50,552 nt of DNA, from assembly GCA_012799645.1 (NCBI GenBank), contig JAAZKV010000028.1, forward strand, positions 1 through 50,552, given 5' to 3'. Position numbers and translations under genes: made by a program. Under the pieces are notes generated by a model that saw only the letters and a program-made list of their open reading frames with translations, made no database searches and had not been told where the DNA came from. Each line of letters begins with the position of its first letter. Within the stretch, counting starts at the first letter, position 1. This DNA is from Candidatus Iainarchaeum sp. GTDB lineage: Archaea > Iainarchaeota > Iainarchaeia > Iainarchaeales > JAAZKV01. Of this stretch, positions 7,908 to 43,858 are shown in pieces.

Positions 7908-10900
7908 TTGATTTCAGAAAAATTATCTGCGTGGTACACAAAAGCCGAGGATAAGTATTTTGATTTACTTGATTTTTTGGATAAGAAAGGAGTTCCTGTT
8001 TATAAGTACTCTGATTTTTTTGAAGAAAAGGGTATCCCTAGTTTTGTTGTTACTGTTTCAATTATTTTACTAATACTTATTCTACTAATGATGCTTTTTG
8101 CTTCACAAAATGCGGCAACCACTGAAATGGTTTTAACAATTAAAGATGGAGCAGGAAATAGTTTACTCAACACTAAAGTGAATATTGTTCTTTCTGATAG
8201 TCAAGGAACTTATTTAATTAAAGATAAAGTTGTTAGTAGTGGGGACACTATTACTATTCCTCAATATCCACAAGGAACAAAAATCAGGTTATCAATAACT
8301 AAGGATGGGTATCAATCTTACGGTGAGGAACTCCAACTTGGAAAAGAAAAAGTAACAAGAACTATTAGTCTTCAAAGGGATTTTGAAGGAATTGAAGCAA
8401 AATTATTACTAATTGATGCTGAAACTAAAAGTAAAATAAAAGATGCAATAGTTTTGGTGTCGTGGGAAGGAAAGGATTATTCTTTCGCTATGGATTCCAA
8501 CGGATTTTACCGAGCACCTAATTTCCCTAATGAAACAAAAGTTGTGCTAAAAATCAAAGCAAGTGGATATAATGATTTGACACAAGAAACCAATTTTGTT
8601 AAAGGAACACACAGAACTTTTACTCTCACCCCTTCAAACGCTAGTTTTGTAGGAAAAGCATCAGTGCTAATTAGTGTTAGTGATATTGAAGGATTAGCAA
8701 TTGATGATGCGAGAGTTACTATTTACAATAAAGAATCAGGAGTAATTTTACTTGATGATTACACAAAAAATGGTTCTATTGCTGGATCAATCCAAGCAGG
8801 AATTCCTCTAAGAATTGTTACACAAAAAACAGGGTACTTAACCAATGATAGTGATGTTTTAGGAACAACTTACACTATTAGAAAAAGCGAAGACAAAATT
8901 GATATCCTAATGAGACAAGGAGGAACAAAACTCGTAGTTGATGTGCTTGATAGTGGAGCAGTGCAATTAGCTCTATCAGGAAGTGTAGTTCAATTATTCA
9001 CTTTGAGCGGAGAAAGAATTGACAAAAAAACAACCACTACAAGCGGAGCAGAGTTTAACGGGCTTGATCCAGAAAAAACAATACTAATCACTGCACACAA
9101 AGAATTTTACTTACCACAAAGAAGAGAGGTGCTTGTAGGAGCAACCGAGAACGAAACTTTCCTACTAACAAAAGCTGATAGCACTAACTCGTTCAGACTT
9201 GATATTTACTCAATTGATTCTTTTGGGGATAGTGTAGGTGGAGCAAAAATCAAAGTTAATCTAATTAGTGACGGAAACAAAATCCCTTACGGAGTTGATG
9301 ATCTAGAATCAAGCATTGCAGGGTATGTTGATGTTGTAGTAGAGAGAGGAAAAACTTATGAAATAATTTCAGAAACAGAACACCTAATAGGATCAACAAT
9401 AGTTGAAGTAACAGAAAACACTATTGAAAACAAAGTGTATGTGAAACTAGAAAAAAAACCAAACATTGTTGAAATAAAATTCGTTGATCCAAGAGGAGCA
9501 AACATTAGTGGGAATGTGAGAATAGATACTCTTAGCGGAACAAAAATCCACGATGGAGAAATAATTAATTCAAGAGTTTTTATTAACTCAACTGATAATG
9601 AAACCGTAGAAGTAACAGTAATAATGAATGATGGAAACAAGTTTGTTGAAAATGTTTATGTGAGAGGAAAAAATTACGTTGAAGTAGTGGTGTACAACAA
9701 AACCGCGAGCGAACTTGTACCAGTAATAGAGTTTGTTGGACTTGAAAACGAAACAGGAAACGCTGTGCAAGGAATCACTCCTAACGAATTTTATTACGCA
9801 AAATTCAGTGTAGCTTTCCCACTCGTTGCAACCAGTGGAGGAGTTCATTTCAGAGCAGGAAATGATTCAATAGAACACGTTGAGAGTGATAATTTTGCAC
9901 TCTTTGAACTAAACTTATCAGGAGCACAAAACTATTACGGAAAAAGTTACACAAAAGATCCAGCACCAGGAAACGAAATACTTGACAGAAGTAATGTAGG
10001 AGAGATGGGAGAACCAAACAAGTGGATTGAAGGAGTAATACAAAAACCAAAAGGAACATACACAGTTAAAGTAAAAGTAAGAGCGAGTGAATTCATATTA
10101 GGAAAAGCAAAACTCCACTACAGAGCGTGGTCATCTGTTGGGGATGAATTTTACAGAACACCAGAAGACACTGAACTAACAACTAATGCTACAAGCGAAC
10201 AAAAAACAACCCTCTACGCAACCACTCTGACAAAAGAACTAACAATGTACGATTCACTACCAGAATGCACAGAAAATATTTGCATGACAACAAACTTTGT
10301 TGATGAAGAAGGAAAAACTTACATTGAAGAAAATTTTGAAGCACAAATGAAAAAAAATTACGCACTAGAAGTAGAGTTCAGCTCTGTGGAAAGTGATTAC
10401 TTACAAGTAGTTGTATCTTCTCCAGAAAATTTAAAATTCATTGGAACACAAGTAGGAACATTCTCTTTCATAAAAAGCGAAGGCGGAGAACAAAGCACGA
10501 GTGATCCTTACACAAATTACGAAGGGTTCACTAAAGCACAACACAACAATAATGAAACAACCACAAGTGATACAACAAACAACACAAGTACTGCGAGCGA
10601 AGCAAGAACCACTGTTTCTTTAACAAAAGAAAGTAAACAAAAAGTAAGATTTTATTTTACCGGAACAAATGAAGGAGCAGGAGAAATAAAACTAACCGCA
10701 ACAGGAAACACTAATATTGAAAAAAATTTATCATTCAAAATTGTTTCAGAAAAAGAACTAATAGTAGAGTTAACAGAACAAAATGTTTTACTTGGAAAAA
10801 ATTTTAGTGTAAAAGTTTATGATACTAAATTAACAGGAATCCCTAATGCGCTAATAAAAATACTTGACAAAGATGGAAAAGTAGTGAAAAGTTTGGCGGG

Positions 10901-16289: not shown

Positions 16290-16511
16290 AAAAAAACTAA
16301 AAAAACTCTGAACAAAAACCTTAAACAAAAAACAATTTCTAAAAAAAATAATTAAACAAAAAAAACGAAAAACAAAAAAACCAACTAAAAAAAAATTACT
16401 TCAAAAAAAAACCATTACAAAAAAACAACTAAACAAAAACCACTAAAAAAACCAAGCACAAAAAAATCATTACAAAAATCACTCAACAAAACACAAAAAA
16501 ATAAATTAGTG

Positions 16512-16640
16512 AAAAAACAATTTCCAACAAAAAAATATTAACACCAAAAAAAATAAATTATTAAAAAACAACCCCTAACAAAAAAATATTAACACCAAAA
16601 AAATAAATTATTAAAAAACAACCCCTAACAAAAAAATAAT
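16512..16640. repeat. Tandem repeat, 50-51 bp unit, about 2.5 copies
   Basis: Units start at 16512, 16563 and 16613. Each contains AAAAAACAA(CCC/TTT)C(T/C)AACAAAAA followed by ATATTAACACC and AATAAATTATT. The second and third copies match almost exactly where they overlap; the third is cut short. Confidence 0.85.
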
Positions 16641-16688
16641 TTACTAAAACAAGATTTATTAAAAAATATTTTAAGAACAAGGATTTTC

Positions 16689-16711
16689 TTTTCTTAAGAA
16701 AAACCTTTTAA
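16689..16711 (+). promoter_or_regulatory. Perfect 14-bp palindrome next to the TATA box of the pilin-like gene
   Basis: TTTTCTTAAGAAAA (16689-16702) is a perfect palindrome, directly followed by the TATA-like CCTTTTAAG (16704-16712). The TATA centre is about 27 nt before ATG 16736, so the palindrome covers the BRE/TATA area where a dimeric repressor or activator could bind. Confidence 0.45.
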
Positions 16712-16735
16712 GCAAGAAAGGCAATTAATTGATTG

Positions 16736-18163
16736 ATGAAAAAATTTATTTACAAAAAAAAACCAAACACGAAAGGATTTAACCTATTTTCAAGTGTGGT
16801 AGCAGCAGTGCTCATAATGTCAGGAGTAGTGCTTGTAAATATACTCATCTCCACTGAAGAAAAAACAAGCAACCAAATTTATTTAATGGTGAATAGTTTC
16901 AGACTCAATGATGCTGCCTCACTCGCAAGAGCGGATTCATTACAAAACTTTAATTACTATTTTAGAGACTCAATGGAAAATTGGTTAGCGATAGATAAAA
17001 CACGATTAAACGATTACGGTGGACACCCACTAATAAACAAAAACAATTACAATAATTGGGATTTAATGGTTAGAAATTTTGAAAAAGTTATTCTACTAAA
17101 AGACACAGGCGGAAACACAGCAATAGGATTCGATGCCGCAATTAATGCAGTTGCAAAAAACACTGTTGAAAAATTTAGAGAGAGTTACTACGGAAGATAC
17201 CACATAACACTAAAAGATGAAGAAAGGACAGCAATAGAAAATATAAAATTTGTAATAAAAGAAGCATTACAAGAAAGTACAAATGATAATGAATCTTTTT
17301 TTGAAGTAATTGAATGCGATCTTGAAGAATGTGAAGGAGGTTCTTTTTACTTCAACATCCCACTAGACAAAATTAGTGATGAGAGTTACGAAAAATTACC
17401 AAGAATTATTGTAAAAGACACTGTAACTAATGAAGAAATAAGAACACCAATTTTGCCAAAAAGTAGATTAAGAATTTATGTCCCTTTAAGAATTTTTAAA
17501 GCACTACACTTATCAATGAAAAGAGCTGACGAAATATTCACTAATGCGGATAGTGATCTTAGTGAAGCACAACTAGGGTTTTGTGATGATGGATGTGTTC
17601 CAAGAAAAAACCCTGTTGAAGAACTTGAAGGAAGTTGGACAAAAAATTGTCCAACTGACACAACTGACAACATCACACAAGAACTACACTTACCAATGCA
17701 ATTAGGAAATTATGCTAATAATTACATAGTGGGTGGATCCCAGTTCGGACAACTCCCACTAAATTATTTTTCAATCTCAAAAATTTGTAGCATCTCTCTA
17801 CCAGAAACTGATAATCAAGAAGTATTTTCTGATTTTTATAATTACCAAACAGAACCAAATAATGGATTATTAACTATTAATGGAAGAGTAGAAAATTGCC
17901 CTTACCAAAAAATTAACGCCATAGTTGGTATTTATAGTACAAAAGAAATAGCAGGAAGTGCAGAAAAAATGTATTGTTCAAAAATACAAAATGTTCAAAT
18001 TGATTTAACTTACCGAGAAACAAACAAAAACTATATAATGAAAGGAGAAGAGTTGTTCCACAAAATAAGAATAGTTACAGGACCATACGACATACCTGGA
18101 GATATACAAAACCCACCCAAATGTAATAGTGGTGGGGGTGGAAACTATTGCAAACCACAATAA
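16736..18163 (+). CDS. Large pilin-like protein with N-terminal prepilin-type helix
   Basis: A 475-residue protein. A basic leader ending KKPNTKG precedes a hydrophobic helix (FNLFSSVVAAVLIMSGVVLV, about residues 17-36). This resembles a class III prepilin signal with cleavage after Gly, followed by a large exported domain of about 440 residues, far more than an ordinary pilin. The exported part is rich in charged residues, has Cys pairs (ECDLEEC, FCDDGC) and ends in a Gly-rich Cys tail (CNSGGGGNYCKPQ). The motif GQLPLNYFSI near 340 resembles GQLPLAYY in GP2, perhaps a shared fold. It stands between GP1 and GP2 in the same direction, with a promoter of its own. ATG 16736 fits the TATA spacing; a TTG codon one triplet earlier is possible. 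A tip or minor pilin linking the giants to the pilus is an inference. A simple type II membrane anchor is the alternative. Confidence 0.7.
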   Translation: MKKFIYKKKPNTKGFNLFSSVVAAVLIMSGVVLVNILISTEEKTSNQIYLMVNSFRLNDAASLARADSLQNFNYYFRDSMENWLAIDKTRLNDYGGHPLINKNNYNNWDLMVRNFEKVILLKDTGGNTAIGFDAAINAVAKNTVEKFRESYYGRYHITLKDEERTAIENIKFVIKEALQESTNDNESFFEVIECDLEECEGGSFYFNIPLDKISDESYEKLPRIIVKDTVTNEEIRTPILPKSRLRIYVPLRIFKALHLSMKRADEIFTNADSDLSEAQLGFCDDGCVPRKNPVEELEGSWTKNCPTDTTDNITQELHLPMQLGNYANNYIVGGSQFGQLPLNYFSISKICSISLPETDNQEVFSDFYNYQTEPNNGLLTINGRVENCPYQKINAIVGIYSTKEIAGSAEKMYCSKIQNVQIDLTYRETNKNYIMKGEELFHKIRIVTGPYDIPGDIQNPPKCNSGGGGNYCKPQ

Positions 18164-18458
18164 AACAAAAACAAAAAAAATTTAAAAATAAAAAAAAATT
18201 AAACAAAAACATTTTATTAAAAAAAACAAAAATTAAAAATAATAAAATTAAAAAAGAAAACAAATAATATTTCAAAAAATATTCGCAAAAAATTTCAAAA
18301 ATTGTTTAATAAAAAATATTTCAAAAAAACCCACAAAAAATTTCAAAAATTGTTTAATAAAATAAAAAAAATATTCAAATTACAAAAAAAATTCTCTAAA
18401 AATACTCTAAATAGTAAAGTTAATAAAGGAATCAAAGCAATAATATGTTATTAACTGC
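18164..18458. repeat. 295-bp gap before GP2 with a 48-bp direct repeat
   Basis: No gene. Two copies of a roughly 48-bp unit lie at about 18267-18360, both containing CAAAAAATTTCAAAAATTG followed by TTTAATAA. A TATA-like AATAATATG at 18440-18448 lies 20-28 nt before the GP2 start. Confidence 0.65.
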
Positions 18459-18467
18459 GTGGTGTTA

Positions 18468-25700: not shown

Positions 25701-26145
25701 AACAACAAGATTTTGTAGAACAGCGTGGTTGAACACTAAAACAAAACCACTAACAAAATTATTGGCGAAAAAAACAACCAAATAAAACAATTAACCCCCC
25801 ACTCTAAAACACTCACCCAAATAAAACACACAAAACTAACCCCCCCCACAAAACACATCTTTTCTTGGACAAAATTTTTGTTCAAAAAAATATTAATTAA
25901 AAAATTACCCAAAATTATTTAGAAAATAATCCACCAATTCAAGAAAATTAATTAATAAATTATTTTAGAAAATTAATCCATTAATTTAAAAAAAAAATTC
26001 AAAAAAATTAAGAATTTTTGAAAAATTGTTCAAAATTATTTTAAATAAAAAAAGATTTAGTGAAGAAATAGTAAAGAAACAAAGCATTTAAATACTACTC
26101 TAATCATTATTTTTATTATAGCGCTTTAATTTAACGTGGTTTCTG
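25701..26145. other. 445-bp gap between GP2 and GP3
   Basis: No gene is visible. The first 160 bases are A/C-rich and G-poor, with C6 and C7 runs near 25795 and 25845. An inverted repeat (TTGGACAAAA / TTTTGTTCAA around one T, one mismatch) sits at 25865-25885. The rest is AT-rich with loose repeats of AAAATTAATTAAT and TTAGAAAATAATCC. A TATA-like TTTTTATTATAG at 26110-26121 lies about 28 nt before ATG 26146. A second, CATTTAAATAC, lies at 26084-26094. Confidence 0.55.
25865..25885. repeat. 21-bp imperfect inverted repeat between GP2 and GP3
   Basis: TTGGACAAAA and TTTTGTTCAA are complementary with one mismatch (a G-U in RNA) and only one base separates them, so as RNA a tight hairpin would lose central pairs. 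It is not followed by a T run on the plus strand. An operator or a 3'-end structure for GP2 mRNA is possible. Confidence 0.4.
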
Positions 26146-29100: not shown

Positions 29101-32100
29101 GCAGAGAGTAGCACAAACAAAGTAGGAATAGCAACAATCACTCTCCCATCAGCTCTTCCAAGCGAAAAATTAACAATCAAAATAGAAAAACCTGAATACG
29201 AAACTTATGTTAAAGAAGTAACAATAAGCGAGGACGTGATAATTGTTTCCCCAACCGAACTAACATACACTCTAAACCCTCAAACAAAAGAAAACGAAAC
29301 AAAAACAATCAAAGTAGAGAACAAAACAGGACTTGATCTTGAAATCAAAAACATTAAATTAGTTGGAAAAATGAAAGGAAAAATCGCTGAATCAAAAACA
29401 GAAAGCGCACTAAGAGCATATAATGGAAAAATAATCAAAGCAAACAATTTTGAAGAACTTGATTTGAAAATATTCATTGCAAACAATGTAACAATCTCTG
29501 ATGATCTTGAAGGAAAAATAGAGATAACAGTGGGAAACGGATATAATGAGTGGGTAAAAGAAATTAACACAAAAATAAGAATAGGGTTAGGAAACGATGT
29601 TGATGACCCTAATTGTCTCGAACTAAGCCAAACCACTTGGAACGCTACCACAGAAGGAGAAGAAATACAAGCAGGGTTTAATTTAACAAACAACTGCACT
29701 GCGGAATCAAAACTAGTAGTGCTAAAAAACTTGGGTGCAAAAAATGACACCACTTCAAGCGTAGGAACAATGAGTGTTCAATCAACAAACGCATACGCTG
29801 AACTTTCAAGAAACTATACTAAAACATTCAGAACCACTCTTGAAGCAGGAGAAACAATCCCAATCACTCTAACATTCACTCCATTCTCTGGAACAAACGC
29901 GACAGCAACAGGAAAAATAGTGTTCGAAGCAAAAAACAAAACCGATTCAAAAGACCAAGTAATAACAACAACACTTGATTACACAATAGAAGCAATTAAT
30001 TTGAGTGAATGCATAACCCTAGGATCAGACCTTGTAGAAATAGAAGAGGAAAGCACAGGAAGCTTCACCATCACAAACAATTGTTCAAAACAAGTGGACA
30101 TCACTGTAAAAAGCGCAGAACTATCACTATCAGACAAAATATTCTCTATCCCTTCAAACGGAACAAAAGATGTTACAATAACAAGAAACACAGGAGAAAT
30201 ACCAGGAATGTACAACATCCTAATCAACGGAAGAGAAGGAACAAACAGAGAAAAAATACTAGGCAACGTGAAAGTATTCTTCCCAGCAACAGACAGTTGC
30301 ATAGAACTATCAAGATACGAATACGATGTTTATAACTCACAATACGAAGATTACGACGGAGAAGACCACGGATACTTGAAAAACAAATGCACAGAAAAAG
30401 TAGTAACAGTAAAAGTTAGCGGAGAAGAACCATACGACAAATCAAGAGTATTCCAACAAGCCCTAATCGGAGCAGTAATCGGATTCTTCAAATCAGATTG
30501 CAAAAGCCTAATGGGAAAACTAACAGGAATCAAATGCGACAACAACAACTGGATTGACAGCGGAGAAAAAAACCCTTCAAAAGCACTACAAAAAGCAATA
30601 AACAAACTAAAAACCGCGACAAAAGTAACAGCGACAAATATTTCTACACAAATAAATGAAACTAAAGAAAGAATAAATAACGAAATAAAAAAAGGAGAAA
30701 CAATAACAAACCAACACAAACAATCTGGAGAAAAATATATTAAGAGCCAATACAATAATATGGAAAATCATTGTAAAGAATTAAATGATGACGCAAAGAA
30801 ACAAAACTGTATAAGAATTGTTGAAAACGGAAGAAGTAATGCAACCAATAAACTTGAAACTTACATAAAAGAAAAAAATACTCAAAAAGAAAAAGTATTT
30901 AATCAACTTTCAACAACTACACAAGAAACAGAGAATTTAGTAAAACAAGCACTTGGAACTATTGAAAAAAATATTGACAATGATAAAGAACAATTACAAG
31001 CACTTATTAATCAAGGATCTATTACAATAAACGCATTAGAACCAAAAATCAATGAAAGTGCCCTGGATGCAGAAAAACAATTTGCAAAAACTTTACTTGA
31101 TTCAGATGAAGAAAGAATTGCAGCATATGAACAATTTAATACTTGGGTTGAAGAAGAAAAATACAAACTAACACAAGACGAAATAAACACGATTAAATCA
31201 ATAATACAAACAACAAAAAAAGAAATAGAAAAAATAACCAATTCACCAATTAGTGAAACAAAAGAAGATACAACTGAACTCGAAAACGAAAAAGATAAGA
31301 AACTGACACCACAAAAAGTTAGTGCAAAAGATGAAATAGACGAAACAATCAAGTACGCAATAGTTGTACCAAGTCCGACAGCACCACCTGTTCAAAAAAC
31401 AACAGCAAAAAAAGATAGAACAATTGAAGAAGAAACTGATGAAACAGAATCAACTCCAAAATATTATCAATATATATACTGGGGAGATGGAAGATTTTTT
31501 TCTAGAGCAGAAAAGTATTATTACAAAATTGAAAATGGGTTAGTATACACAAAAGATTTACGCAATAACTCACGTGCAGAATGGGAAAAAAGTGAATTAA
31601 CCCCCGAAGAAATTGAAAATGGAGTAAGGGGAGAAAATATAAAAGAAATACCCGCACAACAAATCACAACAAATTTCCTTTTGGCTCAGAATGTTGGGTT
31701 TGGTGGGTTTGGTAGTTTGTTTGGTGGGTTGAGTGATTTGTTTTCAGAGAATATGACTGGGATTGCTGGGGGGATTTTTTCTAATAGTGCTCTTGGGGGT
31801 GCGTTGATTAGTGCTTTGATTGAGATGGCTAGTGCTTCTGATACTTTGGTAGAGTATACTGATAGTTTTGTTGTTGATAAGGTTGTGATTGATAGTGTTT
31901 CGCTTGAGTCAGCTAATGGGGTTAGTATGAGTGTGGGTGAGGTTTCGTACGATTTTGATTCTAGCGAGGATTATACAAGTAATGTGGGTGAGTCGTATGC
32001 GGATGAAAAAGGAAAAAGGGTTTCTGGAAGGGATTCGCATAGTTATACTGGGGGAATTATTTACAATACAAGTAATTTGAGTGCTACGAGTTCTACTGTT

Positions 32101-34365
32101 GAGGTGAGAGAATTGACTTTCACTAATTCAGAGAACAACAATAATGATTCTCCTTATGAACCATTTTCTGGTATTGTGAGGGTTACTGCTACTGAGAGTG
32201 TGTATAATACTGATTACAATTATGATCAAGTAAAAAAAGCTGCCAAGGAGAGAGGAGAGTACAAGAAAGACAAGGGAGTGTTTGATGGTTGGTGGTTGAT
32301 AGAGGATTTATTCAAAGGAAATAGTGCCAAAGATGATTTTGTTTACGCGGATATTACAGAAAAGGAGTTAGAAGTTAAAGAGGTTAGGGATTACTCAAAA
32401 GAGTTCCACGTGTTGTTTGACTCTTACGAGTATGTAGAGTGTGGGCCTAATACTTATCCTTGTTCTTCACAAACATTTGGTAGTTGTGTTGTTGGAGCAA
32501 AAACAGGGGTTACTGGGAGAGAGAATGCTCCTAAACTAAAATTTAATTGGAATTGGACAGGAAGAGGAGAGAATGTAATCAATACTGATACTTGTGATGA
32601 GTTTAAGTGTAGTGGAATAAATTGTGGTATAGAGAACAAAGAGTATGTGTATTGTGATGTTACCCAATTCACTATTGCTACTTTAAAGAAAATAATGGAG
32701 ATGAAAGAGTATTTCAAGACAACGAGTTTGCCTGCTTGTCCTCAAGCAATTACTGTGGCTGGAACAAAAACACAAGCAATTGAATCTAATGCTCTTGATG
32801 TTGCTGTTACACAAACCCAATTCAAACCAACAACTAACGGAGCTACTCTTGAAGCTATAGTAAAATCAAACAATCAACTAGAAATGGATGTGAAAGTGTC
32901 TTTCAAAATAACTAGAAGTAATGGAGAGGAAGTGTTTGTGCCACAATGCGAAATAACAAAAAAACTAGTTAGTGAACAAGTTTATTCGTGTGATGTGATT
33001 ACTAGCGAGCTTGGAAGCGGAACTGGGGGAAGATTTAATGTTCTTGTAGTGGCAGAACCAATTCTGTGCGAAGGATGCAAAAACACTAACACCAAAAACG
33101 ACAAACTAGCATCAATGCTTATTATTGGAAGCGAAAATGTACAAGATTGTTCAGAGTATTCAACAAAAAACACTCCTTACTTTACTACTGTGTTAGCAGC
33201 AAACAATCAATTAAGCACTCCTGATGGACAAAAAATATTACACTACACTAACTTCAAAACAAACCTAGTGAGAGATGCGTTTAGTAATGATTTCAGAAAG
33301 GACTTTGATGCATACTCACAAGTAATAGGAGGAGCACCAGTAGCATACACTACTGATAAGATAAGGGATTTGTTCCTTGATACTGAAAGATTCGAGTTTG
33401 ATTGGCCTAATGGACCTAGTGGAGCGTGGAGTGCAGGAAAGTATGATGCGAGAATTATTATAGAGTTCAATAATGATACTTGGACTTGGGACAATGACAA
33501 CAATAATATAAAGAAAATCACTGTGAAACTTGAACCACAAGGAGATCCAAAACCATACCACACAATATACAATGTGGGTTTTAATGGACTAGTGGGAATT
33601 GAAGGAGGAAGAAGTGGGTATGGAGTTAATTACACTCAACTAAGCGAAAAACCACTAAACATTGCAACAAACATTAGAGCATTACCAAACTCAGCAAATG
33701 ACGGAGTATCAAATGCAACAGTGGAAGTAACTAATTCGTTCTACAAATTAAACAACATTGCTACAAGAGGAAACTTAATGACTATTAGTAGAAGCGGAGA
33801 TGATGTAAAAATAGTGCTAAGCCCAAGCGTAGCAGTGCCAATGATACTAAGCATTAACAGAACACAAGCAATGGATGCATACGCATACTATATGGCTAGT
33901 GTTGATGGACACGAAGAAAACGAGTTAGGGCCAACATTTATGCAATGGACAGGAATAGGACAAGGGTGTTATGATTTCTTAGGAACAGGAATGGGGAACT
34001 GGGTGAATACAATTGATGGAAAAGCAGAGCCAAGCAATTTAGGTTACGGGTTAAGGTGGGGAAGTGCAACAAGAGCAGGGACAGTGAATTTATACGGGAC
34101 AATGTATGTGCCTGCAGAAAGTGCATCAAAAATAAGAATAACAGGACAAAGCGAAACAGCACTACTAGAAACACCACACGGAACAGGAACAGAAATACTA
34201 ATAGACACCACAAACGGAATGAATAGTATAGAATCAGTAATAGAAGGAGTAAAAAACGGAGAAATATGTGTAAGCGGAGGAGAATACTATTGGAATTCAG
34301 AACAAGTAATTGGACAAATCCAAAACAGTATTTTGGCAAAAGAAAACACTTGCATAGCGAACTAA
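26146..34365 (+). CDS. Giant membrane-anchored surface protein GP3 (2739 aa)
   Basis: The N-terminal module reads DIYYNWEEKWYDLLDKI, then VPIYK and FPSF, with an anchor at about 45-66. Regulatory-like beta domains run to about 600. The FFVRVG ... GYRAWG domain and a LCEELNGEQFC domain follow, then a further regulatory-like domain and three Cys-paired domains beginning near 1155 (PNCLELSQ), 1287 (SECITLGS) and 1383 (DSCIELSR). After a glycine/alanine-rich hydrophobic stretch (FQQALIGAVIGFF) comes an insert of about 370 residues, largely helical and probably coiled-coil (about 1480-1770), then a low-complexity acidic/Thr linker. A second Gly-rich hydrophobic region follows (about 1845-1900). 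The C-terminal 800 residues are Cys-rich and homologous to GP4, ending in GEICVSGGEYYWN. Codon composition switches abruptly near 31680. ATG 26146 has a promoter at leaderless distance. Confidence 0.85.
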   Translation: MGVGESLKDIYYNWEEKWYDLLDKIDARVPIYKVIDPIDQVFPSFALFLILFFILILLLTLGFFGFVGNGQATLTLTIVTETGETINGAEITLNDGTEKYYSNQFGLVKPITVQLGKEINIKAKKDTAISTSKIYIGSTKEEAEIVLKGYGIELMEAKTMTFTNEQGAKITNDKLTLNFECSSGEAPVERTKDVYSGIANVDVKASCGNLLVTVLSEKYERKSVTLINPSTTIPLTLLVPTETGKAIIKLKDKNGSTITEPVIVQAFRATNLYSAAETKTSMNGEAIFDLPEGEYKFKTSGEGYKLGESTIHNINKNNPTTVEIRLEKSTVGKIKVIVKAGSKLINSANVVLMQGTSQIESKTTNASGYTDFDASDVGPFNVYVTKDGYCESITTTKAPNDININLKPNTGTCGGKLTAKIVDDTGKPVVFAKVIIFGEKEEDEYKTTYIEKLTDHNGIVSWEPVNYSASGEKYKVFAFKGAYSGWSAPREFKSTNETEEFLVTLNIPMGKVNIIVKDNYGEPITSEDGEPVYVQLFGDYDNSKVTGQRIIEGSEGKITIETKAGRKVYAVIKKEGYETYTTIPKLMIGDGQITFNVTLSKPPIEQIQIRLLGLYKNETKALTVQPGQEYLALFELIAPIEYEELGFFVRVGKDTYTKTELDNMFIKEMVGPGVNNILTGATYNKPKGNNIDNLYLNLEQSKWGQVTWETHDYAPGKIIVGALIKIKENAKEGSDTIGYRAWGVKEGSYDRHLTDDVLGTSQSNSQRQELYAATIEHPISIGTETLCEELNGEQFCISSSYTDVDGFTTEFDTSFDAKNNSPYTLNIKTMNNSGKTFDSAATKIENPQENLYLGNYSIIKPREGIVSGTINGYTSEWIETNNYAPGTSIIINPLQLTPREVGSGELKLRIRNDSKIAFEKTFNIFVMSDKKMKVEYMYLNEFQSEVPKLVSGKMQPITVKVYNTANNIEIENALVKLYDRFGTKLAESSTNKVGIATITLPSALPSEKLTIKIEKPEYETYVKEVTISEDVIIVSPTELTYTLNPQTKENETKTIKVENKTGLDLEIKNIKLVGKMKGKIAESKTESALRAYNGKIIKANNFEELDLKIFIANNVTISDDLEGKIEITVGNGYNEWVKEINTKIRIGLGNDVDDPNCLELSQTTWNATTEGEEIQAGFNLTNNCTAESKLVVLKNLGAKNDTTSSVGTMSVQSTNAYAELSRNYTKTFRTTLEAGETIPITLTFTPFSGTNATATGKIVFEAKNKTDSKDQVITTTLDYTIEAINLSECITLGSDLVEIEEESTGSFTITNNCSKQVDITVKSAELSLSDKIFSIPSNGTKDVTITRNTGEIPGMYNILINGREGTNREKILGNVKVFFPATDSCIELSRYEYDVYNSQYEDYDGEDHGYLKNKCTEKVVTVKVSGEEPYDKSRVFQQALIGAVIGFFKSDCKSLMGKLTGIKCDNNNWIDSGEKNPSKALQKAINKLKTATKVTATNISTQINETKERINNEIKKGETITNQHKQSGEKYIKSQYNNMENHCKELNDDAKKQNCIRIVENGRSNATNKLETYIKEKNTQKEKVFNQLSTTTQETENLVKQALGTIEKNIDNDKEQLQALINQGSITINALEPKINESALDAEKQFAKTLLDSDEERIAAYEQFNTWVEEEKYKLTQDEINTIKSIIQTTKKEIEKITNSPISETKEDTTELENEKDKKLTPQKVSAKDEIDETIKYAIVVPSPTAPPVQKTTAKKDRTIEEETDETESTPKYYQYIYWGDGRFFSRAEKYYYKIENGLVYTKDLRNNSRAEWEKSELTPEEIENGVRGENIKEIPAQQITTNFLLAQNVGFGGFGSLFGGLSDLFSENMTGIAGGIFSNSALGGALISALIEMASASDTLVEYTDSFVVDKVVIDSVSLESANGVSMSVGEVSYDFDSSEDYTSNVGESYADEKGKRVSGRDSHSYTGGIIYNTSNLSATSSTVEVRELTFTNSENNNNDSPYEPFSGIVRVTATESVYNTDYNYDQVKKAAKERGEYKKDKGVFDGWWLIEDLFKGNSAKDDFVYADITEKELEVKEVRDYSKEFHVLFDSYEYVECGPNTYPCSSQTFGSCVVGAKTGVTGRENAPKLKFNWNWTGRGENVINTDTCDEFKCSGINCGIENKEYVYCDVTQFTIATLKKIMEMKEYFKTTSLPACPQAITVAGTKTQAIESNALDVAVTQTQFKPTTNGATLEAIVKSNNQLEMDVKVSFKITRSNGEEVFVPQCEITKKLVSEQVYSCDVITSELGSGTGGRFNVLVVAEPILCEGCKNTNTKNDKLASMLIIGSENVQDCSEYSTKNTPYFTTVLAANNQLSTPDGQKILHYTNFKTNLVRDAFSNDFRKDFDAYSQVIGGAPVAYTTDKIRDLFLDTERFEFDWPNGPSGAWSAGKYDARIIIEFNNDTWTWDNDNNNIKKITVKLEPQGDPKPYHTIYNVGFNGLVGIEGGRSGYGVNYTQLSEKPLNIATNIRALPNSANDGVSNATVEVTNSFYKLNNIATRGNLMTISRSGDDVKIVLSPSVAVPMILSINRTQAMDAYAYYMASVDGHEENELGPTFMQWTGIGQGCYDFLGTGMGNWVNTIDGKAEPSNLGYGLRWGSATRAGTVNLYGTMYVPAESASKIRITGQSETALLETPHGTGTEILIDTTNGMNSIESVIEGVKNGEICVSGGEYYWNSEQVIGQIQNSILAKENTCIAN

Positions 34366-34549
34366 AAAAATAATTTAGAAAAAAAATTGTGGGAAAAAGA
34401 AAAGAACAACAAAAATAATTTTTAAAATCGAAAAAAAACTTGAAAGAAAAAATTTTTTTAAACAAAATTATTAGAGTAAAAATTTACTCAAAAAAAATAA
34501 AACAAAAAGAAAAACAAAAAAATTGAAAAAAAATCAAAGAGTGTTATTA
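34366..34549. other. Short AT-rich gap between GP3 and GP4
   Basis: About 180 bases, nearly all A/T, with no gene and no clear TATA at leaderless distance from GP4. GP4 has a GAGTG ribosome-binding site at 34539-34543, so co-transcription with GP3 is plausible. Confidence 0.4.
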
Positions 34550-37500
34550 ATGTTTTTGAAAGAATTATATTATAAAGGAGAAGAAAAATGGTACGCTTTT
34601 TGGGATAAAATAAACGAACACTTGCCCGTGTATAAAATAATTGACAAAATTGATGCGATTGCTCCTAGTTTTTTACTATTCCTAATTTTATTATTATTCA
34701 TAATCTTGTCAGGATTATTTATTTTATTCGCACAAAGTAGTGCTGGTTATACAGCAGAGTTCAGTTTTGTTCAAAGTGACAAAAAAACAATCCTCGCTGA
34801 CTCGATAGTGAATATCCAAATAATAGAAGCTGGTGCTACTGTTTCGGACAAAAATTATCGAACAAACTCTGATGGAATAGTAAAACTAAAAGAACTAAAA
34901 TACGGGAATGAAATAAAAATAATTGTTGATCTAAAAAAAGGAACTTACAACAAATCTTTTATAATAGAAACACCAGAATTGAAAGAAAAAATAGTGTTGC
35001 TCCCAAAAATTATTCTTGAACCAAAAAAAATCTTTATCACCACTATTGATAATTCAGGAATGACTATTCAAGAACCAATGGAGATAGAGTTTTGGTGCGA
35101 AAACGGAGCAGTGAAAACAATACCACAAAAAGCAACTACTAACAGAGGGGTAGTAGAAATTATTGAACCCGTGAATTGTGTAAAACTAAACGCTACACCA
35201 AACTCAAGCACTTACGAAAAAAGAACCTATCATGTTAGTTCAACAAATTACTATATGACACTAGTAAAACAAGAAGTTCCAAAAACCGAACTCACAGTAA
35301 AAGTAAGACATAACAATTCGCCAATTAGTGACACTAGTTTTAATGTGAATGTTAATGGAAAAGAACACTATAACGAAAAAACACTCGCTTCTTCACAAGC
35401 AACGATTTCTGTTGTTCCAGGAACCTACACTGTATCAGTGAGTGACCCCACAAACAAATACGCGACAAAAATAGAAAATGTTACTGTTCAAACAAAAAAA
35501 GAAATAACAATCGAAGTGACAAAAGAAATAAGAGCAAGGATTAAAGTAAAAACAATTGATGTTTCAACAAAATCACTAATAGTTGATGCGATTGTTACAC
35601 TAAAAAACTCTACAGGAGCAATTGTTGATGAAAAAAGAACTAATAGTGCAGGAGTGGTAGAGTTCGCGATAATTGATGTTGGAGATTATTTAGTTAGTGC
35701 AAAAAAAGTAGGGGATTTGAACGGAGGGTATTATTCAAAAACAATAAACCTAACCCAAGTTAGTTCTGACATAAACACCACCATTGAACTAGAAAAAGTA
35801 ACTACTAGTAATGCCGGAAAAACAAGTGTTAGAGTGGTTGATCAACAAGAAAAACCTGTTAGTAATGCAAAAGTGTTTTTGAAATACAAAGAAACTGATG
35901 CGATCGTGGAACTAAACCAAAACAATAATTGGGGAATGACTGACACTAATGGGTATGTGAATTTGTTAGCAGGAAAAGTAGAAGGAACAATTTATGCTTA
36001 TGCAACAAAATACCCTTTCTCTGGGGTTAGTGAAACAAAAACAATTAGCGTGGATAGACAAAACGAATTCACTATAAGTATGAATGTAGGAGAAGCAACT
36101 ATTCTAATTAATTTAGTTGATGAGAGTGGAGAAAAAATAAACGGAACAGCAAGAATTCTACTAACAGAAGATAATAGTGATTTGAGTGGATTAATGCTAA
36201 TAGAGAACGGAACAATTCAAAGAAAAATAAAAGCAGGACAACAAGTGTATGTAGCAATACAATCAGAGGGTTTTGAAAACTACATAGCAGAGCCAAGAAT
36301 GTTATTCCCTAACAAAACCTACACTTACAAAATAGTGATGAAGAAACAAATAAACAAACCAATAATTGAGTTAGAAAATATTTACAACGAAAACGATACT
36401 GTTACAAGAACACTCCAAGCAGGAAAAAAATACTACGCAAAACTAATCCTCGAAGCCAACACTGATTACAAAACAGTAATAACACACTTCAGAGTAGGAA
36501 CAGAAAAATTACTAGAAAATGATTACATGGAAATAGACAAAGTAGAAGTGGCAGGAGTAGTAAAAGAAACAAGAGGAACGAGTTATGATCCAGAAAAAGG
36601 ATACTCTTATGATTCACAAAACACAACTGATGGTTACGCGAAATGGGTGAATGTAGAGATTAGTGATTTTGAACAAGGAACAAGAGTGCTAAAAGTTTGG
36701 TTCAATATTAAAAGAATCGCTCCGGGAAACAAAGAACTAAAATTCTTTTATCGCGCAAACTTTGATGGAACAAAAGACCCACAAACCACAAACACAGGGA
36801 ACGAATTGTATGATGATGCCAAACCATCAAATGTTTATTATGTTGGAGAAGAAGCAACTTGTGAAGAAAATTTTTGCATAACCAACGAAACACTATACTG
36901 GAACAAAGAAGATTTGTACATTAATTCTCCATACGAAGTGAGTCAAGCAGAAACATACACTTACAAATACCAATTAGTGAATAATTCAGAAACTAATTAC
37001 GGAACTAGTGTAAAACAAATGTACCTAAACATACAAGTACTAAACGATGATAAAGTGCCAATAAAAGTAATGGAGTACAAAATCAAGGACAATTCAAAAG
37101 AAGTGGGAGGAGATAGTTTTACCAAAATCAGTAATTACGAAGTGGGTTCGTTTAACAAAAACACTGCTATTGATTTTTCTTTCAAACTAGAAGGAAACGA
37201 AGTGGGGAGCGGAGTAATAAAACTTGAACTAAAAGCTGACGGAGTAGTGTTATACACTAAAGAATCAACATTCAGTGTTCCGAGCGAAAAAGAACTATAT
37301 GCACAAATTAGCCCAAGTTATATTCCTTCACTAGCAAACACTCCAATGATAGTAACCGTTATGGATGATAAAGGAGAACCAATAAACAAAGCAATAGTGA
37401 GGGTTTATGCAAAAGAACCAGGGTTCAGTGAATACTTAATTGATGAACAAGAAACAAACAGAGTAGGAAAAGCACAAGTAGAGTCAGGAGCACACTACAA

Positions 37501-40500
37501 GAGCACAAAAATAATTATAGAAATAACAAAAGAAGGATTTGCTAGAACAAGATTATCAACAACAATCACTGATGATGTAGTAGCATTCAATCCTGACACA
37601 GTAACACTATTACTAAACACTATTAGTAAAAGAGAGGACAAAAAAAGCATTGCTGTGGGTAACCAAACAACAAAAGACCTCAAAATTGTTTCAATAAGAT
37701 ATGATACTTTATTTGATGATGTAATAAATGAAGAAGCAATGAAAGCATACACAGAACTATTAGTGGGAACAATAATTCCAAGCGAAGAACTAAAAGATCT
37801 TGAACTTGTTAAAGTGAAACTAATCAATTCAATCACTCAAGATAATTTCATGGAACCAATTAATCTTGAAGGAGAACTTATTGTCACCTTCCAAATCCCA
37901 AACACAGGAGCGATTTATGACAAAACACTCCCAATAAAAATAATTGTTTCATCAGATGCTGATGTTAAAACAAATTGTTTAGTTCTAAAAAACTCTACTC
38001 AAACAAAAACCACCCAACTAGGACAAGTTAGTTTTGGGTTTGAAATACTAAACGATTGCGGAGTGGATTTAACAGGAATTTATGCTACATCAAGCGGAGA
38101 AATTATGGGAGAAGCTGATATTTCTCTTGTAAGTGCTTCAACAGGAAACTCGGGAAGAAGCGCACTTGATGGAGGTAAGAGAAAAACATTTGAAAAAATA
38201 AGAGCAGGAGAAACACTACTAGGAACAGTAACCTACACTCCTTCAACCAATGCTGTTGGAACCACTCAACCAATCAACATAGTGCTTGAAGGAAAATTCC
38301 AAGACACCACTATAAAAACAACTCCTAACGCACTAACCTTTACTACAAACGTTTTGAACCTAGCAGAGTGCTTGAGTATTAGTTCAAACACTACTCCTGT
38401 AGGATTTGATGAAACCACTGAACTAACAATAGATGCTTCTAATTGTTTAGGACAAAAAATAGAAGTGTATCTTTGTAGAAACGATGCAGGGTGTTCAGGA
38501 GGAGCAGAAGGAAAAATTAGTTTATCTAAAAGAACATTCTCGCTTCAAAACTCTGCAGAAACAATAACAGCATACTCTCCAACAATCCCCGGAACATACG
38601 GAGTAACAGTACACGCAAGAGTGAAAGGAAAATCATCATTCAGCTACATAGGGGAAGTACCAGTATCATTCAGAGAACAAGAAGACAAACACTTCAAACT
38701 AAGCAAATACGACATAATGATTGTTGGAAAAGGAACCGAAGACACAATCCTACTAGAAAACGAAATGCTACAACAAAAAGTAAGAGTAAAAGCAAACGAC
38801 TGCATCTGGGGAAAAAAAGACGCTGACTGGGGATCAAGCGAATGGCTAATGCTACTAACCACCACCGCAAGCGGAGCCGCACTCGGAAACATGATAGGAG
38901 AAAACTTCAACCCAGACAGAAAAACAACAATACCAAACGAAAAAGGAGAAGCAAGAGAACTAACTGCTGAAGAACAAAATATCGCCGGCCAAGTATACGA
39001 TCAAACATATGGAAGTGGCAACCCCGATGTATTAAAAGATAAAAGTATTTTAAGTCAAATTGATTTAATTAAAAATAATCCAACCAGCTTGCCCACAAAT
39101 TGGTTGCTTGATCAAAAAACAAATACTTATGTTGCTGGAACTACAGAAAATGGAATTAGAACAATAAGCACATACAATCCTTCATCTAACACAATTACTC
39201 AACAAGAAATTGGAAGAACAGTAACTGTAGGAAATGATACTTACACAATAATTAGACATCAAACAATTAATGGATACGACATTAAGTCACAAACTCAATC
39301 AACTACATTTACTTTCCACAACAATAGCACTGGGCGAGATTTTATTTACACAAATACAGATAGTGGAAAATTAAGCGGTACTTTTGTTCGTGATGCGATG
39401 GATTACTCCAACAGTTGGGTTAGAAAAATTGATAAAGTAACACCAAATTGGATTAGAGGATTAACAAGTAAAAAATATTCAGGAAACTGGAAAACAACCC
39501 AAATACCTACAACTACTCCTACTCCAGCACAAACTGCTACTTCATCACCACAATCTTTGGTTACATCTTCTTCAAATTTATTCACTGATTTTTCAACAGG
39601 ATTGTTATTGCCATCTTTGTATAATGTGAATGAGTTGAAAGATGGTTATGATTTTGGTTATTATTCTACCAAAAATGTTTTGAAAAACAACAACATTGCT
39701 AGTTTCGCTGAAGCACCTGCTGGCGGTATTAAGTGGGGTTCGGGTATTGGGAGTGTTGTTGGTGCTGTTATTGGTGCTGTTGTTGGTTATATTGCTGCGG
39801 AGGAAGGATTGTATAAGTGTAGAGATAATTTCCAAGTTGGAGAGTATAATGATTTTGTTATTTTGTTACAAGGAGAAAATTTAAGCGTGGTTTCTCCTGA
39901 TGGAGAGGTTATAGAAGAAAGGGTTGTTCCTTCTGATGCTGGCCCTCTTGGTTTTACTCTTGGGGGGGTGAGTGTTAATTGGGATTTTAGTGATGCGGAT
40001 TATGGAGAAACAGAAAATGTAGGGTTAAGGTTCACTAATAGTGGGATTAATGAAGCTAGTCCAAAGTATGGGACTTTAACTATTAATGCAACTAAACACA
40101 CTCATGGGAGAATTGCTACTGTTAAAGATAATTCTTCAACTAGTGGGGTTAATGATTATGATGTGGAGTGTCGTGCTAACACTTTTGGAGAGTATTGGAT
40201 TGGGGGCACTGAAGAGGATGGAGAGTGCAATAATATATGGACATCAGAGTATTCACAAAAGTACCACATTAGAGTAATTAGTGGTGATGTTGTTGATGAG
40301 TCGGCTTATTTAGTTAAAGAAAATTCGTGCAATAATGGAACATTAACAGGGAGTACTGGGAGTGATGCGTTACCAAGAATAAAACTTGGTTGGGATTGGA
40401 GTGATATAGAGTATGATACTTGTACTTACGAGAATGAAGATTATGTTTATTGTGATGCTACTCAAACAATGATTGGGATGGTTAAAAGGTTAGCACGGTT

Positions 40501-42232
40501 AGAAGAGTTTTTGAAATTGAATGCTCCTGCTGGTTGTCCGATTGATGCGATTAGTTCACAATTAGTACAAGTTACTGACGAACTTGACTCATACACTACT
40601 ACTGTTCCTGATGGGTTAATTGGGTTTGAGGATATACAAATCGAAATGGATCCTGATGATTTGAGTGTTAGAGCAATAGCGAAAGTGAATAACAAAACAG
40701 GGGGAACAATAAAAAGTTACTACTCTTATGCAGTTAAAGGAAGTGGAGAAGCGAGTGCTCCTGATCAACCAACAGAAAAGGATTTCCCAGAAGGAGTGAG
40801 TTACGAAACAATCGAGATTGGTGCAGTGCCGGTTTATGAAGGAGTGTATTTTTTCACTGCGGTGTTTAATGGAGAGAAAGGAACAAGAACCGCTATTACT
40901 AGAACATTCGCGAACAGAGAATCAAAACCAAATGATGAGTGTTGGATAAATAGAACTACAAGAAAAACAGGAGGAGTGTCTTCTCTTGCGTATTTCTACG
41001 CTGATAGTGATGTTATTGTTTGGACACACGATATCACTAATAGTAGTGATTTGTTTGATCACCTAAATTTTGGTTCATATTTGATTAGAGATAATTACAA
41101 TAGAGCGTTTTTAACTGATTTCGCAAATTATTACCTAACTAATTTCGGGGAACGAATTAGTGCAACAGAAAAAGAAATGCTAGAATTAATTAAAAAAGGA
41201 AAACTAAAATTCAGTAAAAGATATTCAGGAGACACAGAATTTGAAGCAGGGCTTTACGATACTTGGTTCTATATTGATTTCGGAGACAATTTCAGCATAA
41301 TTGATTCTGATGCGGACATAGAAGTGTCACTATTATCAATAAGAAATCCGGTAGAAAAATTCCCATTCTACTACATTCCTTTTGATGGACCAGTGGGAGA
41401 AAAGTTTTCAAGAAATGGGTATGGAGCGGTTTACAAAAACCTAACCGAAGGAAAAGGAAAAGAAATACAATTAAACGATTCCAGAGCACTAAATGTTGTT
41501 AAAACATTTGAAAACATTACTGGGACAGGAATTATTAATGTGAGTACAAAACAAGGAACAAATCTAGTAGCGGTTAATTCAAGTGTAGGAACAAGAGGAG
41601 AACTAGCAACAGTGAGTTATAGTGGAAACGAAGCAATGATTAATTTTACTCCAAATTACGCTACTCCAATAATAGTTAAAAAAACACTGGGTGGAACAAG
41701 CGGAGCACTAGGAGTTAACATACTAGAAAATCAACAAAAAAAAGACACTGGAGGGAACTTCACTTACTGGACAGGAGCAGCAAAAAGCAAGGACTTTTAC
41801 GGAACAAACGCGGTTGATGTGTACAACAACACTGCTGATACAAAACTAGACAACTTAGATGCTTATGGGTTTAGTTGGAGTGATGCAACACAAAGCGGAA
41901 ACTTATACCTAAAAACAATAATTTATGTACCAACTGACAAAGATTATATACTACAAACAGAAGACAACACTACCACACTATGGTCACCAAATGATCAATT
42001 CAGTCACTCACAACAAATAATAGGAATAAAAGGAATGGAAAAAAACGACAAACTAAACAACTCAAGTTTCACAACACTACAAGATTTGTTTGATCTAGTA
42101 AAAGAACAAAAAGTATGTGTAAGCAATGACGGAGCAAACATGTTGTTTTGGTGGAACACAAAAACACTAACAACCACCGAAGGAACACAAAGCAGTTTAG
42201 AGAGTTACGAAACAACACTAATTGGAAAATAA
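34550..42232 (+). CDS. Giant membrane-anchored surface protein GP4 (about 2560 aa)
   Basis: Closest relative of GP3. The N-terminal module reads ELYYKGEEKWYAFWDKI, then LPVYK and APSF, followed by one anchor. Regulatory-like beta domains follow, then the THFRVG ... AKWVNV ... FFYRANF domain, a TCEENFC domain, and Cys-paired domains near 1149 (TNCLVLKN) and 1281 (AECLSISS); residue numbers count from TTG 34523. A third near 1388 (DKHFKLSK) has lost its Cys pair. Glycine-zipper-like stretches at about 1447-1465 (TTTASGAALGNMIG) and 1735-1770 (IGSVVGAVIGAVVGYIA) bracket an insert of about 270 residues with a different base composition. The Cys-rich C-terminal region matches GP3 (YVYCDATQ / YVYCDVTQ) and ends with EQKVCVSNDGANMLFWWN. 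ATG 34550 is chosen because GAGTG lies six bases before it and it keeps the family spacing; the frame extends to TTG 34523. Confidence 0.84.
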   Translation: MFLKELYYKGEEKWYAFWDKINEHLPVYKIIDKIDAIAPSFLLFLILLLFIILSGLFILFAQSSAGYTAEFSFVQSDKKTILADSIVNIQIIEAGATVSDKNYRTNSDGIVKLKELKYGNEIKIIVDLKKGTYNKSFIIETPELKEKIVLLPKIILEPKKIFITTIDNSGMTIQEPMEIEFWCENGAVKTIPQKATTNRGVVEIIEPVNCVKLNATPNSSTYEKRTYHVSSTNYYMTLVKQEVPKTELTVKVRHNNSPISDTSFNVNVNGKEHYNEKTLASSQATISVVPGTYTVSVSDPTNKYATKIENVTVQTKKEITIEVTKEIRARIKVKTIDVSTKSLIVDAIVTLKNSTGAIVDEKRTNSAGVVEFAIIDVGDYLVSAKKVGDLNGGYYSKTINLTQVSSDINTTIELEKVTTSNAGKTSVRVVDQQEKPVSNAKVFLKYKETDAIVELNQNNNWGMTDTNGYVNLLAGKVEGTIYAYATKYPFSGVSETKTISVDRQNEFTISMNVGEATILINLVDESGEKINGTARILLTEDNSDLSGLMLIENGTIQRKIKAGQQVYVAIQSEGFENYIAEPRMLFPNKTYTYKIVMKKQINKPIIELENIYNENDTVTRTLQAGKKYYAKLILEANTDYKTVITHFRVGTEKLLENDYMEIDKVEVAGVVKETRGTSYDPEKGYSYDSQNTTDGYAKWVNVEISDFEQGTRVLKVWFNIKRIAPGNKELKFFYRANFDGTKDPQTTNTGNELYDDAKPSNVYYVGEEATCEENFCITNETLYWNKEDLYINSPYEVSQAETYTYKYQLVNNSETNYGTSVKQMYLNIQVLNDDKVPIKVMEYKIKDNSKEVGGDSFTKISNYEVGSFNKNTAIDFSFKLEGNEVGSGVIKLELKADGVVLYTKESTFSVPSEKELYAQISPSYIPSLANTPMIVTVMDDKGEPINKAIVRVYAKEPGFSEYLIDEQETNRVGKAQVESGAHYKSTKIIIEITKEGFARTRLSTTITDDVVAFNPDTVTLLLNTISKREDKKSIAVGNQTTKDLKIVSIRYDTLFDDVINEEAMKAYTELLVGTIIPSEELKDLELVKVKLINSITQDNFMEPINLEGELIVTFQIPNTGAIYDKTLPIKIIVSSDADVKTNCLVLKNSTQTKTTQLGQVSFGFEILNDCGVDLTGIYATSSGEIMGEADISLVSASTGNSGRSALDGGKRKTFEKIRAGETLLGTVTYTPSTNAVGTTQPINIVLEGKFQDTTIKTTPNALTFTTNVLNLAECLSISSNTTPVGFDETTELTIDASNCLGQKIEVYLCRNDAGCSGGAEGKISLSKRTFSLQNSAETITAYSPTIPGTYGVTVHARVKGKSSFSYIGEVPVSFREQEDKHFKLSKYDIMIVGKGTEDTILLENEMLQQKVRVKANDCIWGKKDADWGSSEWLMLLTTTASGAALGNMIGENFNPDRKTTIPNEKGEARELTAEEQNIAGQVYDQTYGSGNPDVLKDKSILSQIDLIKNNPTSLPTNWLLDQKTNTYVAGTTENGIRTISTYNPSSNTITQQEIGRTVTVGNDTYTIIRHQTINGYDIKSQTQSTTFTFHNNSTGRDFIYTNTDSGKLSGTFVRDAMDYSNSWVRKIDKVTPNWIRGLTSKKYSGNWKTTQIPTTTPTPAQTATSSPQSLVTSSSNLFTDFSTGLLLPSLYNVNELKDGYDFGYYSTKNVLKNNNIASFAEAPAGGIKWGSGIGSVVGAVIGAVVGYIAAEEGLYKCRDNFQVGEYNDFVILLQGENLSVVSPDGEVIEERVVPSDAGPLGFTLGGVSVNWDFSDADYGETENVGLRFTNSGINEASPKYGTLTINATKHTHGRIATVKDNSSTSGVNDYDVECRANTFGEYWIGGTEEDGECNNIWTSEYSQKYHIRVISGDVVDESAYLVKENSCNNGTLTGSTGSDALPRIKLGWDWSDIEYDTCTYENEDYVYCDATQTMIGMVKRLARLEEFLKLNAPAGCPIDAISSQLVQVTDELDSYTTTVPDGLIGFEDIQIEMDPDDLSVRAIAKVNNKTGGTIKSYYSYAVKGSGEASAPDQPTEKDFPEGVSYETIEIGAVPVYEGVYFFTAVFNGEKGTRTAITRTFANRESKPNDECWINRTTRKTGGVSSLAYFYADSDVIVWTHDITNSSDLFDHLNFGSYLIRDNYNRAFLTDFANYYLTNFGERISATEKEMLELIKKGKLKFSKRYSGDTEFEAGLYDTWFYIDFGDNFSIIDSDADIEVSLLSIRNPVEKFPFYYIPFDGPVGEKFSRNGYGAVYKNLTEGKGKEIQLNDSRALNVVKTFENITGTGIINVSTKQGTNLVAVNSSVGTRGELATVSYSGNEAMINFTPNYATPIIVKKTLGGTSGALGVNILENQQKKDTGGNFTYWTGAAKSKDFYGTNAVDVYNNTADTKLDNLDAYGFSWSDATQSGNLYLKTIIYVPTDKDYILQTEDNTTTLWSPNDQFSHSQQIIGIKGMEKNDKLNNSSFTTLQDLFDLVKEQKVCVSNDGANMLFWWNTKTLTTTEGTQSSLESYETTLIGK

Positions 42233-43833: not shown

Positions 43834-43858
43834 TTAAAGAATTTTAGAGTTGATTGTC

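Follow-up and report, generated by a model that had tools for sequence, protein, structure and literature searches.

The window, meaning the whole stretch of 50,552 nucleotides analysed here, belongs to a genome of Candidatus Diapherotrites (assembly 779 kb), a phylum currently named Iainarchaeota (PMC10936187, PMC12892359). It is dominated by four giant genes, GP1 to GP4, which follow one another on the plus strand as uninterrupted open reading frames of 2413 to 2793 residues, just as the first-pass annotation had described them. Together they amount to 31.5 kb and fill 62% of the window (4.0% of the assembly), so that the large share attributed to them in a small archaeon is borne out. Three further family members (1654, 1716 and at least 2104 aa) are found elsewhere in the same genome, and bring the family total to about 6.2% of the assembly. 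Between 8000 and 26000 the coding strand is very A-rich (AT skew up to 0.45), which fits the Thr/Asn/Lys-rich giants. The features of the window are as follows.

247..798, minus strand: small pilin-like protein (KGQAFSVFELLIAAI); homologue in relative G020
875..1459, minus strand: small pilin-like protein; homologue adjoins the platform gene in G020
1477..3906, minus strand: probable pilus platform, an 809-aa polytopic membrane protein, TadC/FlaJ-like by place and layout
4277..6577, minus strand: type IV pilus / archaellum-I-like secretion ATPase; T2SSE, P-loop GSRGSGKT
6854..7501, plus strand: exosortase/archaeosortase-family protein directly upstream of GP1; TIGR04178 40.7 bits (cut-off 23)
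7908..16289, plus strand: GP1, 2793 aa; N-terminal helix and transmembrane segment (about aa 40-72), beta-domain rod, Cys-rich middle, helical-looking C-terminal part, lineage-specific tip
16733..18163, plus strand: PIL476, large pilin-like protein (ATG at 16736); N-terminus KGFNLFSSVVAAVLIM; conserved Cys-rich ectodomain
18459..25700, plus strand: GP2, 2413 aa; architecture as in the other giants
24012..25697, plus strand: C-terminal module of GP2, aa 1852-2413; profile A7 E 1.8e-118
26146..34365, plus strand: GP3, 2739 aa; architecture as in the other giants
27943..30429, plus strand: GP3 aa 600-1428, chain of Ig-like beta-sandwiches including the FRxG/YRxW and Cys-pair domains; AlphaFold2 mean pLDDT 87.9
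32335..34362, plus strand: C-terminal module of GP3, aa 2064-2739, ending in a C...WN motif; AlphaFold2 mean pLDDT 87.5, pTM 0.76
34523..42232, plus strand: GP4, 2569 aa; judged from homologues, the true start may be the ATG at 34550
40241..42205, plus strand: C-terminal module of GP4, aa 1907-2561; profile A6 E 1.3e-169
42533..42907, plus strand: small membrane protein, 124 aa, conserved (matches in 20 loci)
43019..43354, plus strand: small membrane protein, 111 aa, conserved (matches in 20 loci)
43573..43833, plus strand: small membrane protein, 86 aa, conserved (matches in 18 loci)
43850..44170, plus strand: small membrane protein, 106 aa, conserved (matches in 16 loci)
44285..44614, plus strand: small membrane protein, 109 aa; tblastn of the loci searched gave no homologue
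45675..47162, plus strand: P495, HerA-related pseudo-ATPase without a P-loop; conserved neighbour, functional link uncertain

The N-terminal 1400 residues or so of GP2, GP3 and GP4 are clearly related by BLASTP (GP3/GP4, E = 1.6e-78; GP2/GP4, 3.4e-45; GP2/GP3, 7.5e-43), and GP3 and GP4 also match at the C-terminus (2.5e-32). The pairing of GP1 is weak, as in its match to GP3 over residues 607-990 (6e-12); a profile of GP2-GP4 orthologues matches it at positions 3-1058 with E = 7e-81. On these alignments the four giants belong to a single family, with homology far beyond chance. They share an N-terminal helix, an anchor and the order of the beta domains. Each giant has a conserved N-terminal helix-like stretch (LKxxYYxxEDKYYxLLDKID..IPVYK.IDPIDK..PSF) followed by its one strong transmembrane segment; a further weak hydrophobic stretch lies internally in GP1 and in GP4, and none of the four has a C-terminal hydrophobic segment. 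Sorting of GP1-GP4 by the archaeosortase is ruled out, the C-terminal signal (a transmembrane segment with a basic tail) being absent. The only Pfam matches are to CarboxypepD_reg and macroglobulin-like beta domains. An apparent cupredoxin-like insert was seen in one of six GP1 sequences (L031, 2e-10; its assignment to G020 GP1 was read from the alignment).

The single architecture proposed in the first-pass annotation applies to the front part of all four proteins. It fails for the back half of GP1, where only the front 1050 residues or so are common and the remainder is its own, with many Cys followed by a helical-looking part. The proposed FRxG/YRxW domain is confirmed, in that R650 and G652 (FRxG), K702 and W703 (a KW pair) and the Cys pair are invariant in 20 members of the GP2-GP4 family. 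The spacing of three to five residues proposed for the Cys pair is right for GP1, GP2 and GP4 (C-x4-C) and wrong for GP3 of the window (C-x8-C).

The C-terminal module is indeed common to GP2-GP4: profile A7 finds it in GP3 (1.6e-23) and GP4 (2.8e-25) as well as in GP2, in line with profile A6 and the BLASTP match noted above, and it was not found in GP1. The GP3 module as a whole has no counterpart in PDB (best TM-score to the query 0.15 among the matches listed) or BFVD, and the local structural matches are single CARDB/Ig-like sandwiches. Similarly, the rod region of GP3 retrieves only generic Ig chains from PDB, such as axonemal central-apparatus proteins, alpha-2-macroglobulin and PrgB. 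A viral origin was rejected, profiles A2 and A6 being without a relative in IMG/VR.

The genes upstream and between the giants resemble a pilus machine. The secretion ATPase has a T2SSE domain (PF00437, 77.1 bits; cut-off 24.9) with a Walker A motif, and scores far below the equivalog cut-off for archaellum FlaI (168.7 against 550). The 809-aa protein matches no TadC/FlaJ-type platform family in Pfam or NCBIfam; a homologue adjoins the cluster in G020 (617 bits), and a platform-like gene adjoins the secretion ATPase both in the window and in G018. PIL476 has no convincing Pfam family. Its 13 orthologues have a predicted prepilin-type N-terminus with the consensus KGFNLFTALVAF, from an alignment read by eye. 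In about 25 genomes, tabulated by hand, the ATPase lies on the same contig as GP1 and at most 18 kb from the GP1 match, including a genome of another order (G086); the exception is G012, where it is about 470 kb away. The orthologues of this ATPase are mostly 50-78% identical, other ATPase paralogues in the same genomes being at about 30-45%. In one relative (L130:731-4549, G032) an intein lies inside the pilus ATPase gene (Intein_splicing 85 bits, LAGLIDADG), and split ATPase matches suggest that inteins are present likewise in G018, G031, G033, G035 and G061.

The other neighbours are also as first described, namely an archaeosortase scoring above the TIGR04178 cut-off and a series of small membrane proteins. 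Archaeosortase homologues are direct neighbours of GP1 in G020 and G011; in the complete genome GW2011_AR10 one is found in its vicinity. P495 has only a distant relationship to HerA (DUF87, best E 3.9e-5, found in 4 of 11 orthologues; HerA in PDB, E 0.027). None of the 11 orthologues compared has a P-loop at the conserved site, and an active motor was rejected on this ground; P495 is still kept next to the cluster.

The set occurs throughout the phylum. The N-terminal module of the giants was found in 84 of 87 genomes of the phylum, in all 25 near-complete ones and in 45 of 46 genera, with weaker matches in another order of the same class; the GP1-specific middle part is present in 63 of the 87. 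A GTDB-wide scan, limited by its search pattern, gave 39 loci, GW2011_AR10 among them; nearly all of the titles read Diapherotrites, ainarchaeum or plain 'archaeon'. Five loci titled Falkowbacteria, Chloroflexi, Micrarchaeota or Thaumarchaeota (L055, L062, L078, L084 and L087) carry the same giant genes, and their bins look mis-assigned. Most assemblies are draft metagenome-assembled genomes, with G020 and AR10 near-complete.

Gene order is likewise conserved. In relatives from different families GP1 is followed by PIL476, GP2, (small membrane protein), GP3 and GP4. After these come several small membrane proteins, then P495 with a coiled-coil-like gene on either side, and finally PolB. GP1 adjoins PIL476 in 7 of 7 cases, PIL476 adjoins GP2 in 17 of 17, and GP2 adjoins GP3 in 23 of 24; GP3 is followed by GP4 in 19 cases, and by a second piece labelled GP3 in 8 more. 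In L043, L057, L085 and L087, GP3 is apparently split into two or three reading frames. Synteny with the pilus, archaeosortase and small-membrane-protein partners, which had been put forward as a test in the first-pass annotation, is thus seen in relatives. In a tree of 45 N-terminal regions the position labels change three times, which is the minimum, against a mean of 25 for shuffled labels; some labels were taken from similarity to the window, which makes the test partly circular for those rows, and in G020, G021, G016 and G010 the labels of all four giants come from their position in the run. Position 3 has a support of 85, and position 4 is not closed. Because the tree groups by position, the four copies are ancient and have been kept apart, and on this phylogeny their split predates the diversification of the order.

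A further clue comes from the C-terminal end of GP1, for which 20 tail regions and several further tails were read. In G020 it ends in an Amidase_2 domain (101.6 bits, cut-off 26) together with a weak glucosaminidase match. In G022 the tip has Amidase_3 (72.9 bits), glucosaminidase (41.2 bits) and NlpC/P60 (28.6 bits) domains, all over cut-off, and residues of the catalytic type for these families are visible by eye. GP1 of G011 ends in a glucosaminidase. Related domains also occur outside GP1: in AR10 a 1016-aa Amidase_3 and glucosaminidase-like protein separates the archaeosortase homologue from GP1, in G020 the archaeosortase homologue has an 821-aa glucosaminidase-like protein as its neighbour, and G041, G043 and G044 have secreted-type proteins of about 1000 aa in which a glucosaminidase-like domain is combined with the C-terminal module of the giants. 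Five of 15 reading frames with Amidase_2, Amidase_3 or glucosaminidase-type domains are GP1 tips or cluster neighbours; if the giants make up 6% of the genome, at least five would be expected by chance with P = 0.0014, in a rough test on hand counts. Two other large proteins carry wall-degrading domains, one of 1766 aa with M23, GH3, Amidase_3 and a CBM_4_9 match that falls short of the family cut-off (L118, G023:C4), and one of 2291 aa with Amidase_2 and SLT (L117, G015:C10). We know of no archaea with peptidoglycan, and bacteria would thus be the likely target where, as judged from these domains, GP1 tips carry hydrolases.

Hydrolase-tipped GP1 occurs in three families only. GP1 of the window has no amidase, glucosaminidase or NlpC domain by Pfam, and no Amidase_2, Amidase_3 or glucosaminidase was found in the window genome (G000) or in its family (10 genomes). 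For the commoner GP1 tail (VPEALL...) a decayed lysozyme fold was considered and rejected (hhalign probability 0.2% against glucosaminidase).

It is useful to compare the set with known systems. Archaeal type IV pilus and archaellum-type systems (FlaI/TadA, TadC, class III pilins) are alike in the T2SSE ATPase with its P-loop, in the probable platform and in pilin-type N-termini, including that of PIL476 within the operon of the giants. They differ in that none was found described with four giant anchored proteins, and in the low FlaI equivalog score. The Kil apparatus of Myxococcus xanthus is a Tad-like machine with an established role in contact killing of bacterial prey (PMC8460266). It is similar in the way it works, with a Tad-type ATPase, platform and pilins acting on contact with prey; it is bacterial, has secretin and CpaB parts and, as described there, no giant anchored rods, and its killing of prey is demonstrated, which for the giants would be a hypothesis. 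Homology between the two was compared at the level of the ATPase family.

The SPEARE proteins of Nanohaloarchaeota, proposed to attack a partner cell (PMC6642349), are also giant anchored surface proteins of DPANN archaea. Their transmembrane segment is mostly C-terminal, in contrast to the sole strong anchor of GP1-GP4, which is N-terminal. They also have serine protease, laminin-G and restriction-enzyme-like domains, and Pfam scans of GP1-GP4 found no such domain. Archaeal peptidoglycan hydrolases that kill bacteria are established (PMC12352652), and likewise are peptidoglycan-cutting domains in archaea without peptidoglycan; those described here differ in forming the terminal part of a giant anchored protein or in bearing its C-terminal module, and Diapherotrites or Iainarchaeota are not mentioned in that paper. 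The Giant1-5 cluster of Apilactobacillus kunkeei (PMC12863079) also consists of consecutive genes for giant extracellular proteins, forming about 6% of a small genome, but it is bacterial, is built of beta-solenoids and alpha-repeats, and is limited to a few genera. We found no described S-layer or adhesin family with the domain order of the giants, and no description of the set in the open literature, to which the search was confined; the view that the architecture is undescribed stands to that extent.

On the basis of these observations, we favour with moderate confidence the hypothesis that GP1-GP4 and PIL476 form a pilus-coupled apparatus for cell-surface contact, with an exchangeable tip. 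What we say about the function of the giants we infer from the features described above. Each giant would be held in the archaeal membrane by its N-terminal anchor, with the conserved cytoplasmic helix serving assembly; about a dozen beta-sandwich domains would form its projecting rod. The rods would end in a docking module in GP2-GP4 and in the exchangeable tip in GP1. The pilus ATPase and platform may then assemble PIL476, or move it, through or along a complex of the giants; the GP1 tip would attach to the partner on contact, and tips bearing hydrolases would cut the wall of what may be bacterial partners.

The occurrence of the family throughout the phylum, the nearly constant gene order, the grouping by position in the tree and the presence of a pilin-type N-terminus inside the operon of the giants argue for such an apparatus. 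The earlier suggestion of a machine for attachment or attack gains indirect support from the hydrolases on the GP1 tips of relatives and from the coupling to a pilus ATPase. Against it stand the lack of these hydrolases in the window genome and its family, the restriction of hydrolase tips to three families, and the proposal that Diapherotrites are free-living (PMC6642349, PMC12892359). The commoner GP1 tail domain is unrelated to glucosaminidase by profile comparison, and in G012 the ATPase is far from GP1. Neighbourhood is no proof of a physical complex; PolB, too, keeps its place beside the cluster.

The main rival is an envelope scaffold or S-layer replacement, in which the four anchored rods would make up a regular outer coat that spaces the cell and holds proteins, the pilus passing through it or adjoining it. 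An orthologue of each giant in essentially every genome of the phylum is what a structural coat would need, and a phylum-wide invariant set would suit an envelope role equally well. Transmembrane-anchored chains of beta-sandwiches resemble S-layer stalks, and profile A2 has a generic single-domain match (E-value 1e-4) to the membrane protein 8qox_B, probably the Sulfolobus S-layer stalk SlaB. N-glycosylation sequons are slightly above shuffled expectation (48 against 34 in GP1). However, no S-layer domain family is among the Pfam matches of GP1-GP4, a set of four non-interchangeable paralogues whose order is fixed, together with a pilin and a pilus ATPase, is atypical of S-layers of one or two proteins, and peptidoglycan hydrolases on the GP1 tip would have no role in a coat. 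We regard this explanation as unlikely, while giving it real weight.

A surface-tethered digestion scaffold would have the giants hold peptidoglycan hydrolases or proteases and feed on dead bacteria or wall fragments, the cell being a scavenger rather than an attacker. The proteins of about 1000 aa that combine a glucosaminidase-like domain with the C-terminal module look as if that module were a docking domain, and the 1766-aa protein of G023 would fit as well. Such a scaffold leaves the coupling to the pilus unexplained, and most genomes, including that of the window, lack the hydrolases searched for; we consider it quite improbable. We give similarly little credence to ordinary adhesins, independent giants for biofilms or surfaces whose order is kept by slow genome rearrangement: beta-sandwich rods are the usual adhesin build and the housekeeping gene PolB is a stable neighbour too, as if the locus were stable in general, but adhesins usually vary in presence and copy number, whereas here there are four ancient orthologue groups across about 20 families, with tightly conserved N-terminal helix, anchor and C-terminal module.

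The pilus-coupled contact apparatus could be taken further, to an ancient phylum-wide machine for breaching cells, in which the four giant rods would form a crown and a pilus motor would drive the large pilin through it, with the GP1 tip as an exchangeable effector that in several lineages would be a peptidoglycan-cutting head used against bacteria. In that case Diapherotrites would parasitise or prey on bacteria in a contact-dependent way and would not be free-living scavengers. This extended form is tentative, and we consider it rather doubtful.

Cultivated DPANN archaea are ectosymbionts of archaeal hosts (PMC11291902), and no surface machine of Diapherotrites was found described in the open literature. 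The pilus-linked set of four giants is a concrete and testable candidate for how these archaea meet other cells, and the hydrolase tips of some lineages point to bacteria as their partners or prey. The set is an unusual investment of protein, at about 6% of the genome, and if it is a contact machine, it would represent an ancient and conserved division of labour among four paralogues.
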